From the NCBI GenBank assembly GCA_022823465.1, contig JAJEHX010000031.1:1-64000 (forward strand): DNA of 64,000 nt, written 5' to 3'. This DNA comes from Candidatus Latescibacterota bacterium. Lineage in GTDB: Bacteria; JAAXHH01. This document shows, in pieces, positions 23,951 through 58,158 of the stretch (the first letter of the stretch is position 1; every line of letters starts with the position of its first letter). Both the position numbers and the translations under genes were made by a program. The notes below the pieces were generated by a model. That model searched no databases. It saw only the letters and a list, made by a program, of their open reading frames with translations, and was not told where the DNA came from.

Positions 23951-25024
23951 TCACACCGAAAGCCTGCGTTCCACCTCGCCGATCACGCTGCGGGGCGGCA
24001 GATCTTCCATGCACGCATGGGTGCCGAAGCGGCAGGCCCGATCCCCGTGCAGGCTGCATGGGCTGCAGGGCAGGTCGAGCGACACGGCCGCGTCTTCCGG
24101 GCCCAGCGGGGCGAATCCCAGGCGAGGATGAGTCGCTCCGAACACGCCGGTAACCGGTGTGCCTACCGCCGTGGCTACATGCATGGGACCGGAGTCGTTG
24201 CAGACAAGATGCCGGCATCGCTCCACCGCCGCGGGCAGCAGCGCGAGATCCGTCGCCCCGGTCCAGTCCAGGGCAGGTTCCTTCATGGCGCCGGCCACCT
24301 CCGCGGCCAACGGGCGGTCCGCGTCGCTTCCCAGCAACAGGACCCGCATGCCGTGGACCGAGGCCAGATGGTCGGCAACCAGGGCGAACCGGTCCGGTAA
24401 CCAGCGTTTGGGTCCGTGAGAGGCCCCGGGCGCCAGGCCCAGGACCGGATCTTCCGGTCCAATGCCCACTCCGGCCAGCCGGTCCGCCACTTCGTCCGCT
24501 ACGGAGTCTTCCACGATCAGTTCAGGTATTTTGTTCACGCCCGCGTCCGGCGCGTCTTCGCTGGACTGCTCGTCACGCACCGTCCTCCCATCGAGCGCGC
24601 CAAGCACTTCCAGGTATCGATCGACCGTATGGGGTACGGCCGCGGAACCCCCGGGCCTGGCAACCAGGGCCATGCGGGCGAACCTTCGCTTGTCGTACCG
24701 GACGCCCCGCCGCGCGTTGACTGCCAGCCCAAAGAGCCTGCTGCGGATACTCCCGTGCAGGTCGATCACCAGGTCGTAACGCCTCCGGCGCAGGCGGCCG
24801 ACAAGCGCCCACAATCCCTGTTCAGGTTCTAAGCGCCGCACCTGGAAGATACCGGGCAGCGCACCGGCCAGGGGGGCGTACTCGTCTCGTGTGAGGAAGT
24901 CGACCTCCGCGTCCGGACAGATCCTGCTCAACTGCCGGGTAACCGGCGAGGTCAGCACGATATCGCCCATCGAACTGAACCGGATGACCAGGATGCGGGA
25001 TGGTGTTTCGGAAGAAAGGGCCAT
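23951..25024 (-). CDS. Glycosyltransferase family 9 (LPS heptosyltransferase-like)
   Basis: A 357-residue GT9 protein that probably transfers heptose or a related sugar to the lipopolysaccharide core at the cytoplasmic face of the inner membrane. The N-terminal nucleotide-like fold reads ILVIRFSSMGDIVLTSPV, and the C-terminal sugar-nucleotide domain has GLAPGASHGPKRW and the CNDSGPMHVATAVGTPV block typical of WaaC/WaaF. Start is ambiguous. ATG 25024 (MALSSETPS) places the first strand as in homologues; an in-frame GTG at 25075 lies in a tandem-repeat unit and lacks a ribosome-binding site. It follows a second GT9 gene across an 18-bp repeat array. Confidence 0.92.
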   Translation of the reverse strand: MALSSETPSRILVIRFSSMGDIVLTSPVTRQLSRICPDAEVDFLTRDEYAPLAGALPGIFQVRRLEPEQGLWALVGRLRRRRYDLVIDLHGSIRSRLFGLAVNARRGVRYDKRRFARMALVARPGGSAAVPHTVDRYLEVLGALDGRTVRDEQSSEDAPDAGVNKIPELIVEDSVADEVADRLAGVGIGPEDPVLGLAPGASHGPKRWLPDRFALVADHLASVHGMRVLLLGSDADRPLAAEVAGAMKEPALDWTGATDLALLPAAVERCRHLVCNDSGPMHVATAVGTPVTGVFGATHPRLGFAPLGPEDAAVSLDLPCSPCSLHGDRACRFGTHACMEDLPPRSVIGEVERRLSV

Positions 25025-25061
25025 GGCTTCGGACACCGCGGGATAAGGGTTTATGGGCAAG

Positions 25062-25133
25062 GTTCGGTCCGGCACGCCGACTCAGCCATGTGCGCCGGTT
25101 CAGCCATGTACGCCGGTTCGACCCGGTGCGCCG
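25062..25133. repeat. 18-bp tandem array (4 copies) between two GT9 genes
   Basis: Units at 25062, 25080, 25098 and 25116, each ending in CGCCG or CACGCCG on the plus strand (for example GTTCAGCCATGTACGCCG). The array begins 1 bp after the stop of the upstream GT9 gene (25135-25137) and extends to the possible GTG start of the downstream one. Copies differ at several positions but keep the 18-bp period exactly. Confidence 0.85.
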
Positions 25134-25134
25134 T

Positions 25135-26157
25135 TTATCCCAGTTGCTGTCCCACGCCGTCCCGGGCCATATCCACGGTGATGCCGGAAAGGTCGCAGAG
25201 GGGGCCGCGGTCGCAGGTCGGACACTGACCTTCGGGGGGCAGCAGGTTGAGGTCCCGGCCGCCCAGGGGCCGCCACCGCTGCGGCGACCGCGCGGGCAGG
25301 GGACAGAAGATGGAAACCGTGGGGATGCCCAGCGCCCCGGCCAGGTGCATTGGCCCCGTGCTGCTGCTCACCAGGAGATTCATTTCGCCGATCACCGCGA
25401 TCAGTTCGTCCAGTGAAAGCCGCCCGGCCAGGGAAAGGACCGGACCGTCCAGCCGGGACTTGATCGCGTCGGCGAGATGTCCTTCCTCCGCGCTGCCGGT
25501 GATGACGATCTTCGCACCATGTCGTTCCTGCAAGCCCTTTGCCAGCGCGCCGTATCGCTCGGCCGTCCAGTTCGGGGCGTTCCGGCCGTTGCCGGGATGA
25601 ATGCCGATGACCGGCATCCCTTCCGGCCGCTCCAGAATCTTGCGGGCTTCCAGCTTCTCCTTCTCCACCACCTCGATCAACGGCCGCCCGCCCGGTTCCC
25701 GGGCGTCGAGCGCACGGGCGAGGTCCAGGCAGTAGTCCGATTCATGCCGGAGGGGCACGTAGCCTTCACGGCTGATCGCCCGGGTGAAGGTGAGCGCCTG
25801 GTAGATCGTCCGGCCCACGCCGATCCGGCGGGGGATGCCGGCCAGGAATAGCATCCAGGCGTGACGCATGGTCGGCATGAGCATCAGTGCCGTGTCGAAA
25901 CGATGGGCCCTCAGACGCCGCACCTGCGCGATGATTCCCGCCAGACCGCGGTGACCATCTTCCGGGTCGTCCTCGATCACGGCGTCGAGACAGGGATTCC
26001 TGTCAGGCACGCTCCGGGTATAGGGGCGCACCATCATGGCGAGATAGGCCCCGGGCCAGCGATGCCGGAGGGCGTCCAGCACCGGCAGGGACAGCACCAC
26101 GTCTCCGATCCGGTCGGGTCTCACCACGAGGATTCGCGGTGACGTTGCCTGTTCCAA
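25135..26157 (-). CDS. Glycosyltransferase family 9 (LPS heptosyltransferase-like)
   Basis: A 340-residue GT9 protein. It has ILVVRPDRIGDVVLSLPVL at the N-terminus, IGIHPGNGRNAPNW at the start of the second domain and VSSSTGPMHLAGALGIPTV near the C-terminus, all heptosyltransferase hallmarks. The C-terminal CPTCDRGPLC contains three Cys. It pairs with the GT9 gene downstream, consistent with successive sugar additions to an LPS core. The start is TTG 26157, with GGAGGA 8 nt upstream; no ATG fits. A 9-bp tandem array lies between it and rlmN upstream. Confidence 0.92.
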   Translation of the reverse strand: MEQATSPRILVVRPDRIGDVVLSLPVLDALRHRWPGAYLAMMVRPYTRSVPDRNPCLDAVIEDDPEDGHRGLAGIIAQVRRLRAHRFDTALMLMPTMRHAWMLFLAGIPRRIGVGRTIYQALTFTRAISREGYVPLRHESDYCLDLARALDAREPGGRPLIEVVEKEKLEARKILERPEGMPVIGIHPGNGRNAPNWTAERYGALAKGLQERHGAKIVITGSAEEGHLADAIKSRLDGPVLSLAGRLSLDELIAVIGEMNLLVSSSTGPMHLAGALGIPTVSIFCPLPARSPQRWRPLGGRDLNLLPPEGQCPTCDRGPLCDLSGITVDMARDGVGQQLG

Positions 26158-52639: not shown

Positions 52640-52677
52640 AAGAAGCCGGCGAAGCAAGATACGTTCGCCGGCTTCTT
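52640..52677 (+). terminator. Stem-loop after the DUF1326-like gene
   Basis: A perfect 14-bp stem (AAGAAGCCGGCGAA with TTCGCCGGCTTCTT) and a 10-nt loop. The following GTTGT is only partly T-rich. It probably terminates the upstream transcript but also overlaps the possible TTG start of the EamA permease (52676), so it might instead act as an attenuator. Confidence 0.65.
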
Positions 52678-53557
52678 GTTGTCTACGGACGGAGAGCAGG
52701 CCACGGCGCTCGGATTCCTACTACTGATCACGGCGACCTGCGTGACGTCGTGTTTCGGTCTGATTCTTAAATCTGCCCACCACAACGGACGCAATGCCCT
52801 GGCGGTGGGCAGCCTCAATTACGGCGCGGGCGCCGTGATCTCCGGCCTGTTGATGCTCTTTGACCCAGGCTGGGTCTGGCATTGGACCACCGTGCTGATC
52901 GGCGCGGCCAGCGGGTTCTTCTATTTCGTCGCCTTCTACTTCCTGATCCAGGCGCTCCTGCAGGGCGGCGTCGCCGTGACGCTGGCGATCGTTCGCCTGT
53001 CCGTCCTGATCCCCATCCTCTGCTCCATCGTCATCTGGTACGAAATCCCAACTCCGCCGCAGATCGCGGGCATCGCCACGGTCTGCATCGCGCTGCCGCT
53101 CCTGACGCTCGGCGTAGGCAGGCAGGCCGATATGTCCCTGCGCGGCGTCGCCTGGCTGGTCGGGGCCCTCTTCATCACGACCGGCTTCTGCCACCTGTCC
53201 CCGAAGGTTTTCAGCGAACTCGCGCCCCAGAGCCAGATGTCGCTCTACCTTTTCTCCCTCTTCGCCGTATCCGGGGTCATGGGGTTTTTCTACCTCTGGC
53301 GCAAACCGATCCGGGTGCGTCTGCCCGAAGTGCGGTGGAGCGTCCTGCTGGGTGCGGTCAACGTCGGAGGAACGTGGCTCCTGGTCCTCACGCTCAAGTA
53401 TCTTCCCGGCACCGTCGTCTTTCCTTTTGTCAGCGCGGTCGGCCTTGTCATCACCACGCTCGTGGCTATATTGTACTGGAAAGAGCAGGTACGCAGGCTG
53501 GCCTATGTCGGCATCGGCCTGACCCTGGTCGCGGTCGTCCTGGTGAACAGCGGCTGA
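52676..53557 (+). CDS. EamA/DMT-family permease
   Basis: A 293-residue protein with ten hydrophobic helices in two EamA halves (ALGFLLLITATCVTSCFGLI near the start, VVFPFVSAVGLVITTLVAIL near the end, then the terminal WKEQVRRLAYVGIGL). It probably exports or exchanges a small metabolite. No ATG lies near the expected start; TTG codons at 52676 and 52679 are the best candidates, the first within a stem-loop. No clear ribosome-binding site is seen, so the start is uncertain. It is 76 nt before the PfkB-SIS gene. Confidence 0.85.
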   Translation: MLSTDGEQATALGFLLLITATCVTSCFGLILKSAHHNGRNALAVGSLNYGAGAVISGLLMLFDPGWVWHWTTVLIGAASGFFYFVAFYFLIQALLQGGVAVTLAIVRLSVLIPILCSIVIWYEIPTPPQIAGIATVCIALPLLTLGVGRQADMSLRGVAWLVGALFITTGFCHLSPKVFSELAPQSQMSLYLFSLFAVSGVMGFFYLWRKPIRVRLPEVRWSVLLGAVNVGGTWLLVLTLKYLPGTVVFPFVSAVGLVITTLVAILYWKEQVRRLAYVGIGLTLVAVVLVNSG

Positions 53558-53633: not shown

Positions 53634-55361
53634 GTGTTCAAGGACATCGATCGGACTCGCAAGGTAGTCGGCATCGGCAGCAACGTCGTGGACGTGATCT
53701 ACCGGGTGAACCGGATCGCGGGGCCGGAAGAGAAAACTTATATTCTGCCGGACGAGGCAGGCGCGGTCGTGACCGAGATTGCGGGCGGCGTGACGCTGAA
53801 CCACCTGGCCTGGTCGGCCCTGATGGGGGTCCCCGCCGGTCTTTTCGGATTTCAGGGAGACGACCGGTACGGCGCGATGATCCGGGACGAGATGGACCGC
53901 CACGGAATCGACCGGTCGGCCGTCCGGGTCCTCGAGGGCCGTTCCTCCGGTTTCTCCGTCGTCAACGTGGCCGCCGACGCGGACCGGGCGATCTACATGG
54001 CCCGCGCCCTGACGGCGGAGACCACGGCCGCGGACGTGGAGACGCATTTCGCCGACTACATTCGTTCGGCCGCCATGGTGACGACGGAGATTTCCCAGCT
54101 CCCGCTGGACGCCGTCATCGCGGCATTGCGCATTGCCCGCGGGGCCGGCGTACCTACCGTGCTGGACGTGGACGTCCCCCCGGATTTCGCCATCGACGTG
54201 GCCGGTCTCGGTTCCGCTGAGGACTTCGAGGAGGCCCTGCGTCTCGCCGACGTCGTGAAACCCGCCAAGGCCGCCGCATTGCAGATAGCGGAAGCCGACA
54301 GTTCGGAGGAACGGGCCGAAAGCATTTTCAAACGGTACGGCGCCCGGCTGGTGGCCATCACCGAGGGGGCGCAAGGCTCGGTCGTCACCGACGGGCAACA
54401 GACGATTCGAACGCCTGCGAAACACGTGGACGCCCGCGACACCACCGGCGCCGGGGACGCCTTCCTCGGCGGCCTGATTTCGGGACTCTTCCACGGGCTT
54501 ACGCTGCAGGATACCGCGTCGCTTGCCAACGCATGCGGCGCCGTATGTTGCCGCATTTCAGGGGCGTTTCCGCAACTGGGTTCGAGCCCGGATGACGTGT
54601 TCGCCCTGTACGAAGGCGTTCCAATTCCCGTCCGGAACGCACCGGAAACCGTGATCGGCGCGGAAACGACAACGGAACCGGTAACGGCAACGACAACGGA
54701 AACAGTAACGGTGAAATCCGAAGGAGACGATCCTGCCGCGACGACCGCCGGCGAGGCCGGGATGAATGCCGTGCGGCGGACCGCCGAGGCACTCGCCGGA
54801 CTACGGGAAAGCCTCCCCGCCACGTACTTCGACGAAGCCGTTGCGGTAATCCAGACGTCGGAAGCGGCGGGTGGGCGCGTACACGTCACCGGCGTCGGGA
54901 AGTCCCGCCATATCGGCTGCAAACTGGCGGCTACGCTGCAAAGTACCGGGACGAAGGCCTATTTCCTTGATCCGGCCGACTGCAACCACGGGGACAGCGG
55001 CCAGGTGGCGGAGGGAGACGTGGTCGTCGCCCTGTCCCACAGCGGGGAGACGGAAGAACTGCTGGCCGCCGTGCGTACCCTGGTCGAAAACGGTGCGACG
55101 ATCGTCTCGATCACGGGAAACGCCGCGTCCGCTCTGGCCCGAACGAGCGCGGCGACCCTGCACGTGCCCGTGGCGGGCGAGGCCGGTCCCCTCGGGCTCG
55201 CGCCGACGGCGAGCACGTCCTGTCAACTCGCCGTGGCGGACGGGCTCGCCATGGCCCTGAAAGCTGGCCGCGGGTTTACCCGGGAAGACTTCGCCCGGTA
55301 TCATCCCGGCGGGCATCTTGGGAAGCAACTGCGGGATAAGGACCAGGAAGGATCGCCATGA
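53634..55361 (+). CDS. PfkB sugar kinase-SIS sugar-phosphate isomerase fusion
   Basis: A 575-residue two-domain enzyme. Residues 1-325 are a PfkB/ribokinase kinase: VVGIGSNVVDVIYRVNRIAG at the start, GGVTLNHLAWSALMG, and the C-terminal anion-hole motif DTTGAGDAFLGGLISGL with catalytic Asp. A Thr/Glu-rich linker (about 340-365, repeats of ETTTE and TATTTET) leads to a SIS domain (about 370-575) like KdsD/KpsF arabinose-5-phosphate isomerase: GVGKSRHIGCKLAATLQSTG, HGDSGQV, ALSHSGETEELL and RYHPGGHLG. The start is GTG 53634. Its TGA overlaps the ATG of a HAD phosphatase (ATGA). I know no common fusion of these two; the combination suggests one sugar-phosphate route. Confidence 0.92.
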   Translation: MFKDIDRTRKVVGIGSNVVDVIYRVNRIAGPEEKTYILPDEAGAVVTEIAGGVTLNHLAWSALMGVPAGLFGFQGDDRYGAMIRDEMDRHGIDRSAVRVLEGRSSGFSVVNVAADADRAIYMARALTAETTAADVETHFADYIRSAAMVTTEISQLPLDAVIAALRIARGAGVPTVLDVDVPPDFAIDVAGLGSAEDFEEALRLADVVKPAKAAALQIAEADSSEERAESIFKRYGARLVAITEGAQGSVVTDGQQTIRTPAKHVDARDTTGAGDAFLGGLISGLFHGLTLQDTASLANACGAVCCRISGAFPQLGSSPDDVFALYEGVPIPVRNAPETVIGAETTTEPVTATTTETVTVKSEGDDPAATTAGEAGMNAVRRTAEALAGLRESLPATYFDEAVAVIQTSEAAGGRVHVTGVGKSRHIGCKLAATLQSTGTKAYFLDPADCNHGDSGQVAEGDVVVALSHSGETEELLAAVRTLVENGATIVSITGNAASALARTSAATLHVPVAGEAGPLGLAPTASTSCQLAVADGLAMALKAGRGFTREDFARYHPGGHLGKQLRDKDQEGSP

Positions 55362-56266
55362 CCGCCGAAACACCGAAACGCACCACAGGAACACCTGAAA
55401 TAAAGCTGATCGCCTTCGACCAGGACGACACGGCCCTGCTGCCCGACGGGAAACCCTCCTCCGAAGGGCTGGGCGCCATCGAAGCCGCCCTCGAGCAGGG
55501 ATTGATCGTAAGTTCGGTGAGCGGACGGAACATCGACCGCAGCAGCGAACCCTTCAGCGAAGCCCGGCCGCTGTTCGATCGGCTCTACCTGATCGCCAAC
55601 AACGGCGGGATCATACTCGGGCCGGTCCGCCAGGGACAAAGGCCGCTGCTTTTCGAAAAGCGTATACAACGGGACGCCTTCCTGGACCTGCTCGACTTCA
55701 TCGAAGAAAACGGCTTCAACTTCGTATACAGCTGGCTGCGCGTGACGGATGCCGGCCCCCTGGACAGCGTGATCACCGACCGGCATACCCCGTCCATCTC
55801 GGCCATAGAGGAGCAGAGCCGCGCCGCCGTCGACACTGACGACGACCTGCTGGCGCATCTGAGACAGGGCGAGTACCCGCCGCCGCCCAAGATGTTGATT
55901 CTGCCCGGCCTGGACCGGCGCGAGGCGGTACTGGCGGAGCTGAAGAACCGTTTCGAATCCAGCCTCTATCTCGTCAAGACGAACCCGGACCGGATCGAAG
56001 CCATGCACGCCGACGTAAACAAGCGAGTCGCCGTCGAGTTTATTGCGCGCGAGCACGGGATCACCATGGATCACGTGATGGCCGTCGGGGACGGCGACAA
56101 TGATCTGCCCATGCTCTTCAACGCGGGCCTGGGGGTGATCATGGACAACGCCCAGGAAACAGTCAAGGAAACGGGCCTGGCCCAGGGCCTGGTCATTGCT
56201 CCGGCGAACCATGAAAACGGCTTTGCCTGGGCGGTCCGTCGATACGCGTTGAACAACGGCCGTTGA
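55358..56266 (+). CDS. HAD-superfamily (Cof-type) sugar phosphatase
   Basis: A 302-residue phosphatase. Motif I is LIAFDQDDTALLPDGK (nucleophile Asp, DxDxT) and motif III/IV is HVMAVGDGDNDLPML, with Lys in the DADVNKRVAVEFIARE region before it. A C2-type cap lies between. Start ATG 55358 overlaps the stop of the kinase-SIS gene by four bases, so the two products are made together. It probably dephosphorylates the product of that enzyme or clears toxic sugar phosphates; substrate unknown. Confidence 0.92.
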   Translation: MTAETPKRTTGTPEIKLIAFDQDDTALLPDGKPSSEGLGAIEAALEQGLIVSSVSGRNIDRSSEPFSEARPLFDRLYLIANNGGIILGPVRQGQRPLLFEKRIQRDAFLDLLDFIEENGFNFVYSWLRVTDAGPLDSVITDRHTPSISAIEEQSRAAVDTDDDLLAHLRQGEYPPPPKMLILPGLDRREAVLAELKNRFESSLYLVKTNPDRIEAMHADVNKRVAVEFIAREHGITMDHVMAVGDGDNDLPMLFNAGLGVIMDNAQETVKETGLAQGLVIAPANHENGFAWAVRRYALNNGR

Positions 56267-56280
56267 ACGGGGCGCCTCCC

Positions 56281-58158
56281 ATGCGCACATCCCTCCTCGA
56301 CCATCTGGGTTCTTCCATGCTGGTGGCGGACGGCGCCATCGGTACCATGCTGTACGCCCGGGGCGTGCCGCTGGAGGTCTGCTTCGACGAAATCAATCAG
56401 AGCCGGCCCGATCTGGTCCGGAGTATCCACGAGGAGTACGTCGACGCGGGCGCCGGGTTGATCGAAACCAATACCTTCGGGGCCAACGCCCTGTCCCTGT
56501 CGAAGTACAACCTCGAGGACCAGGCGGAAACACTGAACGCCCGGGGCGTCGAGATCGCGCGGGCGGCGGCGGGGTCCCGGGCCTACGTGGCCGGCGCCGT
56601 GGGACCGGCCCGCGGACTGCCCCACCGGGAATACACCGAAGCGGACTGCGTCCGTGCCTACCGGGAGCAGGTCTCCGCCCTCGCGGCGGGCGGGGCGGAC
56701 GCGGTCATCCTGGAGACCTTTCTCCGGCTCGAGGAACTCAAAAGAGCGTTGGCGGCCTGTCGGGAAGTGTGCGACCTGCCGGCGATCTGCCAGCTCGCCG
56801 TGGATGAGTACGGGCAGACCGACGACGGGTTCGGGGTAGCGGAAGCCTTCGATCAACTGCGCGCGGCCGGCGCCGACGTAGTGGGGGTAAACTGCCGCAG
56901 CGGTCCCAAGGGCCTGCTGGACGCCCTGGCGCCGGTGCCCCTGTCAGAGGGGCTGGTGCTCTCCGCCTTTCCGAACGCGGGTTCCCCCATCTACGTGGAC
57001 GGCCGTTTCATCTACGAGGCGACCCCGGAGTACTTCGCGACGAGCGCCCTCCGGCTGCGCGAGCAGGGCGTGCGGCTGATCGGCGGATGCTGCGGGACCA
57101 TGCCCGACCACGTCCGGGCCATGGCCCGGGCGCTCGAAGGCCGAGAGATCGTCACGCGCAAGAAAGTCGTGCCGGTGGAAGTCCGTCTACCGGACCGCAA
57201 GGCAGACGCGACCCGCCCTGGCCGACCCGCACGCGTCCCCCCGGCGGCCGAACCAACCATCGTGGAACTGGTCCGCGAGCGGGTGACCGTCATCGTCGAA
57301 CTGGACCCGCCACGGGACCTGGATCACGGACCCATCGTACGGGGCGCCCGGGCACTGAAAGCGGTGGGCGCGGACGCCCTCACCATGGCCGACAACTCCC
57401 TGGCCGTCACGCGGATCAGCAACATGGCCGTGGGTCAGATCGTCAAGGAAGAGGCCGGTATCCGCCCGCTTTTGCACATCACCTGCCGCGACCGGAACCT
57501 GGCCAGCCTGCAGTCCCGGGTGCTCGGCCTGCATGCCCTGGGTATCGACCACGTGCTCGCCGTCACGGGCGATCCCGTTAAATTCGGCGATCAGCCCGGC
57601 GCCAGCAACGTCTACGACGTCTCGTCATTCGAACTGATCCGGCTGATCAAGCGAATGAACGAGGGCATGGGTTTTTCAGGCCGGCCCCTGAACGGCAAGA
57701 CCGGATTCACCGTGGCGGCAGCCTTCGATCCTAACGGACCCAGCCTGGAAAGAAGGATCAGGAGGCTGGAAAGGAAGGTCGAGGCCGGCGCAGACATGAT
57801 CATGACGCAACCGCTGTTCGACCGGCGCCAGGCCAAAGCGCTCTACGAAGCGACCCGGGATGTCGGCGTCCCCATATTCCCGGGCGTCATGCCCCTGGTC
57901 AGCGAAGGAAACACGGAGTTCCTCCACAACGAGGTGCCGGGATTCGTGGTGCCCGACGACGTCCGCGCCCGCATGGCCCGCGCGGGCCGGGGACGAAAGG
58001 CCCGGCGAGAGGGCATCGCCATCGCGCGGGAAATCATCGAGTCCGTCCTGACGCACTTCAACGGCCTCTACCTGATCACGCCCTTCAACCGTTATCCCAT
58101 GACGGTCGAGTTGACGGAGTTCGCCCTGCAGGCCGCCTCGCGCGAGGAGACCGGATAA
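56281..58158 (+). CDS. Bifunctional homocysteine S-methyltransferase/methylenetetrahydrofolate reductase
   Basis: A 625-residue fusion like Bacillus YitJ. Residues 1-290 are a homocysteine methyltransferase barrel: VADGAIGTMLYARGVPLEVC and the Zn-binding Cys in GVNCRSGP and GGCCGTMPDH. Residues about 330-620 are a MTHFR-type flavoprotein: LDPPRDLDHGP, HITCRDRNLASLQS, TGDPVKFGD, then MIMTQPLFDRRQA and FPGVMPL. It would make 5-methyl-THF and methylate homocysteine to methionine. ATG 56281 is used; a TTG at 56263 overlapping the phosphatase stop is an alternative. No metH or SAM riboswitch is visible here. Confidence 0.93.
   Translation: MRTSLLDHLGSSMLVADGAIGTMLYARGVPLEVCFDEINQSRPDLVRSIHEEYVDAGAGLIETNTFGANALSLSKYNLEDQAETLNARGVEIARAAAGSRAYVAGAVGPARGLPHREYTEADCVRAYREQVSALAAGGADAVILETFLRLEELKRALAACREVCDLPAICQLAVDEYGQTDDGFGVAEAFDQLRAAGADVVGVNCRSGPKGLLDALAPVPLSEGLVLSAFPNAGSPIYVDGRFIYEATPEYFATSALRLREQGVRLIGGCCGTMPDHVRAMARALEGREIVTRKKVVPVEVRLPDRKADATRPGRPARVPPAAEPTIVELVRERVTVIVELDPPRDLDHGPIVRGARALKAVGADALTMADNSLAVTRISNMAVGQIVKEEAGIRPLLHITCRDRNLASLQSRVLGLHALGIDHVLAVTGDPVKFGDQPGASNVYDVSSFELIRLIKRMNEGMGFSGRPLNGKTGFTVAAAFDPNGPSLERRIRRLERKVEAGADMIMTQPLFDRRQAKALYEATRDVGVPIFPGVMPLVSEGNTEFLHNEVPGFVVPDDVRARMARAGRGRKARREGIAIAREIIESVLTHFNGLYLITPFNRYPMTVELTEFALQAASREETG

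Follow-up and report, generated by a model that had tools for sequence, protein, structure and literature searches.

The window analysed here is a stretch of 64,000 nucleotides from a Candidatus Latescibacterota genome (contig JAJEHX010000031.1). The locus under study within it consists of a gene for a two-domain kinase-isomerase protein and a gene for a phosphatase, set between two conserved neighbours, with the following features:

52676-53557, + strand: EamA-family transporter, conserved upstream neighbour
53634-55361, + strand: PfkB-SIS fusion gene, 575 aa, GTG start
53664-54566, + strand: ribokinase-like kinase domain of the PfkB family, covering residues 11-311 and carrying the TGAGD motif and the base D275
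54621-54749, + strand: Thr/Ala-rich linker, variable, spanning about residues 330-372 (pLDDT <50 over 335-371)
54661-54711, + strand: degenerate tandem repeat, 24-bp (12-bp), inside the linker
54756-55358, + strand: CBS-less SIS isomerase domain of the KdsD/KpsF type, K423, H452, E516 and H557 kept
55358-56266, + strand: Cof-type HAD-IIB phosphatase, 302 aa, ATG start, ATGA overlap with the stop of the fusion
56281-58158, + strand: bifunctional homocysteine S-methyltransferase/methylenetetrahydrofolate reductase, a conserved neighbour on the downstream side, separated from the HAD stop by 14 bp

The original prediction described a PfkB kinase fused to a KdsD-like SIS isomerase in one gene, translationally coupled by ATGA to a Cof-type phosphatase and carrying repeats at the DNA level in its linker, and each of these features is borne out. 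Indeed, the protein encoded by 53634-55361 matches the Pfam PfkB family over residues 11-311 (147 bits, cut-off 25.8) and the SIS family over residues 415-540 (87 bits, cut-off 25), while Pfam revealed no CBS domain in it. The fusion and HAD reading frames overlap by ATGA at window positions 55358-55361, and the linker repeat at 54661-54711 comprises 2.1 copies of the 24-bp unit with 88% matches. The length and composition of the linker differ among relatives. With a pLDDT of 71.7 from 16 sequences, the predicted structure of the fusion is of mediocre quality, and no inference was drawn from its pocket, the kinase lid being badly predicted.

The fusion profile matches 15 of the 16 genomes of the phylum at E <= 1e-30, G015 being the genome without a match. 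Both domains lie in one frame in 14 of the 16 genomes (13 with a single match, and G001 with two matches in one 589-aa frame), and the fusion of G014 is interrupted by a contig end. This single reading frame, together with its recurrence in three Poribacteria-phylum genomes, excludes an assembly artefact as the source of the fusion. The named relatives of the kinase domain (12 loci) are mostly Ca. Latescibacterota MAGs, the remainder bearing Gemmatimonadetes, Zixiibacteriota and uncultured bacterium labels, in addition to two Poribacteria. In the PfkB tree, which leaves out three short paralogs of the same genome (L004-L006, incomplete ORFs), ten fusions are united in a single clade (95/94), whose sister is the kinase that stands alone in the Poribacteria-phylum genome G024 (100/99). 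The ten fusions also cluster in the SIS tree (71/99), which is weakly resolved, with 11 of 16 inner branches open and a long outgroup.

The gene order EamA, fusion, HAD, MmuM/MTHFR is conserved wherever contigs allow. The HAD gene begins no more than 125 bp after the fusion in all 14 Latescibacterota genomes where both genes are readable, with the exact 4-base overlap in four of these and a 19-nt gap in six. The homocysteine S-methyltransferase/MTHFR gene follows the HAD gene in every Latescibacterota genome whose contig extends that far.

Judged by its sequence, the SIS half is very probably an arabinose-5-phosphate isomerase. Among NCBIfam models it scores best with kpsF, KdsD and GutQ, at 156-166 bits over about 154-187 positions; the whole-model KpsF cut-off of 203.7 is not reached because the CBS positions are absent. 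Identity to annotated KdsD/KpsF proteins is about 45-48%, and the closest solved chains are the phosphosugar isomerase 5uqi and the E. coli arabinose-5-phosphate isomerase 2xhz. K423, H452, E516 and H557, which we take to be the catalytic Lys/His/Glu/His of KdsD, are invariant in 16 sequences. A further active-site position of arabinose-5-phosphate isomerases, E472, varies between E, K and G in the same sequences, and the solved relative 3etn carries K. The fusion shares with KdsD, GutQ and KpsF the SIS domain with these four presumed catalytic positions; unlike them, it lacks the CBS pair, sits behind a PfkB kinase and lies outside the kds-lpt operon. The CBS-less phosphosugar isomerases 5uqi and 3etn likewise consist of a SIS domain only and align through the C-terminal H-x-GG end, but those chains stand alone (about 200-220 aa), whereas the SIS domain here is fused. 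It is also the genome's only KdsD-like SIS. A TIGR00393 search of the 14 fusion-bearing Latescibacterota genomes yielded no other KpsF-type SIS domain beyond one weak match in G008; the remaining matches were, besides this one, CBS stretches. The weak match sits in a SIS gene whose cluster is represented in the genome under study by 6-phospho-3-hexuloisomerase.

The kinase half falls nearest to ribokinase (RbsK) in both sequence and fold. Its closest solved sequences are mostly ribokinases (4x8f, E 2e-19), with the putative sugar kinase 1tyy and the fructokinase 3hj6 among them. Ribokinases also lead the Foldseek matches and the VIA-align comparison, which covers the kinase alone (9zpu_A: Z 28.4, rmsd 4.2, 282 residues). 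Since adenosine, pseudouridine and sulfofructose kinases follow within 1-3 Z units of the ribokinases, the fold does not single out one substrate. No curated equivalog is matched: the kinase half reaches 102.2 of the 299.65 bits of the ribokinase model, far under its cut-off, and 48.4 of the 345 bits of the HldE model (rfaE_dom_I). The catalytic D275 is invariant in 16 sequences.

A study of E. coli ribokinase gives seven ribose-contact residues, namely N14, D16, G42, K43, N46, E143 and D255 (PMC9604405). In phmmer alignments, D16, G42, N46 and D255 are retained as D20, G52, N56 and D275, and N14, K43 and E143 are changed to V18, V53 and Q155. The positions of N14 and D16 were taken from the alignment with the Thermus ribokinase 8cqx, the E. 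coli alignment beginning at residue 41, and the E143-Q155 pairing holds only with the gap where phmmer placed it. Identification as a ribokinase by residues therefore fails at three of the seven contacts. The same study reports a 15-fold gain in D-arabinose turnover (kcat) when the lid residue A98 was changed to Gly (PMC9604405). This position corresponds to an invariant Ser108 in the fusion kinase, a hint, though no proof, that the substrate may present a polar group at that face. Assignment of the fused kinase as a pentose 5-kinase is plausible but remains tentative.

As predicted, the downstream 302-aa ORF (55358-56266) encodes a Cof-type phosphatase: it matches Hydrolase_3 of Pfam at 118.6 bits and exceeds the HAD-SF-IIB cut-off (57.4 versus 41.8 bits), scoring 104.6 of the 137 bits required for the Cof-subfamily. 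The motifs D21/D23, S55, K222 and D245/D249 are invariant in 12 sequences. The structure model (pLDDT 80.8) displays a C2B-capped sugar-phosphatase fold, with 4dwo, 1nf2, YidA and PfHAD1 as the nearest structures. The protein has this capped fold and the four catalytic motifs common to HAD enzymes in common with the Cof-type HAD-IIB sugar phosphatases YidA, BT_4131 and PfHAD1, but it is below the Cof-subfamily cut-off and is not the specific ortholog of one with a known substrate. Membership of the KdsC family is not supported, given that the KdsC model TIGR01670 returned no match and the nearest folds are of the Cof type. The protein appears to be a sugar phosphatase of a generic kind, one that might stand in for KdsC.

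Arabinose-5-phosphate isomerase opens the synthesis of KDO, a core step in building the Gram-negative outer membrane, and the standard KDO pathway has no place for a kinase step. Elsewhere in the genome lies a KDO operon with the order gatC-kdsB-kdsA-lpxL-like-lptC-lptA-like-lptB-rpoN, in which neither kdsD nor kdsC is present; in a Klebsiella record these two genes immediately precede lptC, a place from which both are absent here. The kdsA gene was found in 14 of the 16 Latescibacterota genomes, with 12 over the cut-off, G015 just under it and G014 partial at a contig end. In the fusion-bearing genomes G002 and G007 the KdsA search returned just the ~122-bit match common to all genomes, which is taken as DAHP synthase. 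No KdsC family member passes the cut-off in any of the 16 genomes, compared with four of 14 control genomes. This gap at kdsD and kdsC makes the SIS half the best KdsD candidate; the HAD protein becomes a possible candidate for the KdsC step, though a weaker one. It seems likely, on this genomic context, that the isomerase serves KDO in Latescibacterota. The genome also carries a 3-hexulose-6-phosphate synthase-like gene (192.7 of 200 bits) beside 6-phospho-3-hexuloisomerase (211 of 160 bits) at L092:5380-6616, near two tandem Cof-like HAD genes; this pair is a possible source of ribulose-5-phosphate.

In the Poribacteria phylum, eight of 84 genomes have a match to the fusion profile (E <= 1e-40). 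Three (G016, G017 and G026) possess fusions of 54-57% identity, G024 possesses the orthologous kinase alone, and G022, G039, G040 and G041 possess SIS proteins without a kinase domain. The HAD gene does not adjoin the fusions in this phylum. The four genomes with the PfkB domain contain no HAD ortholog, their best HAD matches having 27-44% identity over full or partial length, whereas the G013 and G001 orthologs reach 63-67%; on this evidence the HAD protein is evidently not part of the core enzyme. A KpsF-type SIS occurs in seven of the 84 genomes (E <= 1e-30) and KdsA in five (E <= 1e-45), with both together in G016 alone, although absences in this phylum are soft, MAG completeness not being given. 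The SIS family is accordingly not tied to KDO in the Poribacteria phylum. A strict co-occurrence of fusion and KdsA fails across these 84 genomes, and the presence of fusions without KdsA in two of the three fusion-bearing genomes, G017 and G026, counts against an exclusive KDO role, as does that in the Latescibacterota G002 and G007. Furthermore, as the four other KdsA-bearing genomes have no KpsF-type SIS, a missing kdsD elsewhere proves little. Arabinose-5-phosphate can reportedly also be made by eukaryotic GFAT, a SIS enzyme of another family (PMC11301363).

In G039, a KpsF protein (211.6 bits, cut-off 203.7) overlaps by ATGA with a ribokinase (348.5 bits, cut-off 299.65) at L102:8388-9913. 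By these family matches, KpsF-type isomerases and ribokinase-type kinases have come together at least twice, in a fused protein and in a pair of adjoining genes. No other finding speaks as strongly as this independent pairing for placing the kinase product in the same pentose-phosphate pool. Of the four KdsA genomes other than G016, three were inspected (G020, G029 and G028, at L103, L104 and L105); in these, KdsA forms the rear part of a fusion with a HAD judged by eye to be KdsC-like, and a KpsF-type isomerase is absent. Ahead of the fusion or the lone kinase, three genomes of the Poribacteria phylum encode a protein of ~200-230 aa that by eye looks similar in type (L090:13258-13905, L097:7406-8092 and L098:9294-9905), and the two copies scanned have no Pfam match.

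The original prediction held that the kinase, isomerase and phosphatase represent the same three activities used in heptose or KDO synthesis. This equation does not hold: the kinase reaches 48 of the 345 bits of HldE, the HAD protein is neither GmhB nor KdsC, and KDO synthesis includes no kinase step. The locus does share its activity types (isomerase, PfkB kinase, HAD phosphatase) with the GmhA-HldE-GmhB pathway, but none of its three proteins scores within the heptose families. The SIS part stays under the SIS_2/GmhA-type cut-off (22.5 of 27 bits), its best models being KpsF/KdsD. The proposed search for gmhA, hldE and kdsD found separate GmhA-like (125.5 of 209.45 bits) and HldA-like (226 of 345 bits) proteins in the genome, and no KdsD-type SIS beyond the fusion. 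On these separate proteins and the family scores the heptose pathway is rejected as unsupported, while the KDO link is likely, considering that the fusion holds the genome's only KdsD-type SIS and that the KDO operon has no kdsD or kdsC. The suggestion that a GT9 pair may use the product of the route stands as far as the pair itself is concerned, with no link to the fusion found. The two GT9 heptosyltransferase-family genes lie at window positions 23951-26157, score 120 and 101 bits to PF01075, and adjoin an RlmN-like radical SAM gene.

The reading that we favor, at a probability of roughly 55%, combines a CBS-less arabinose-5-phosphate isomerase feeding KDO, a pentose 5-kinase and a co-expressed sugar phosphatase. 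The sequences show the domains, catalytic residues, conservation, linkage and the lack of another KdsD or KdsC; the reactions and substrates are all inferred. The C-terminal half would interconvert ribulose-5-phosphate and D-arabinose-5-phosphate and, in Latescibacterota, would act as the genome's KdsD, supplying KdsA for KDO synthesis. The ribokinase-like N-terminal half would most likely transfer phosphate to O5 of a free pentose (D-arabinose, D-ribulose or D-ribose) and thereby bring the salvaged sugar into the same ribulose-5-phosphate/arabinose-5-phosphate pool. The co-expressed HAD would act as a sugar phosphatase and may be the KDO-8-phosphate phosphatase that is otherwise missing.

An alternative is that the fusion serves the salvage of D-arabinose or another pentose apart from KDO, the kinase producing arabinose-5-phosphate and the isomerase converting this to ribulose-5-phosphate for the pentose phosphate pathway. 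The KdsA-lacking fusion genomes G017 and G026 fit with this, as do the KpsF-ribokinase coupling of G039, which also lacks KdsA, and the fusion of G016, which adjoins genes reading by eye as a split transketolase. Ser108, at the lid position linked to arabinose turnover, points the same way, although it may be common among other PfkB enzymes. However, no pentose transporter, isomerase or regulator was seen adjoining, the neighbours being EamA, HAD and a methionine-pathway gene, and we regard salvage apart from KDO as rather unlikely.

The order of activity types, isomerase, PfkB and HAD, as in GmhA-HldA-GmhB, would also fit a route of heptose-like logic, in which the SIS half makes arabinose-5-phosphate, the kinase phosphorylates C1 and the HAD removes the 5-phosphate to leave D-arabinose-1-phosphate for a nucleotide sugar. 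The invariable placing of the HAD directly after the fusion in the 14 readable Latescibacterota is consistent with such a route; yet the kinase scores with ribokinase-like enzymes rather than HldA, the four PfkB-bearing Poribacteria-phylum genomes do without a HAD ortholog, and the conserved neighbours include no nucleotidyltransferase, which makes it highly improbable. Scarcely better is the prospect that the kinase half, with little catalytic role, is a regulatory or scaffold domain in place of the CBS domains of KdsD. The CBS domains are indeed absent and the fusion occurs only with this kinase subfamily, but the catalytic residues of the kinase are invariant in 16 sequences and its ortholog stands alone in G024.

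A literature search found no paper on a PfkB-SIS fusion, and the architecture is a new arrangement of known enzymes. In its most far-reaching form, which we consider unlikely, the protein would be a bifunctional D-pentose 5-kinase and arabinose-5-phosphate isomerase that takes free D-arabinose directly to arabinose-5-phosphate, and onward into KDO synthesis or into the pentose phosphate pathway, in two candidate phyla, as a bypass of or a supplement to de novo supply; together with the HAD, it would constitute a relocated, partly non-homologous KDO precursor module. The fusion appears to occupy the place of kdsD, which these Latescibacterota otherwise leave empty, and the joining of kinase and isomerase suggests that one protein can link the salvage of pentoses to the supply of KDO.
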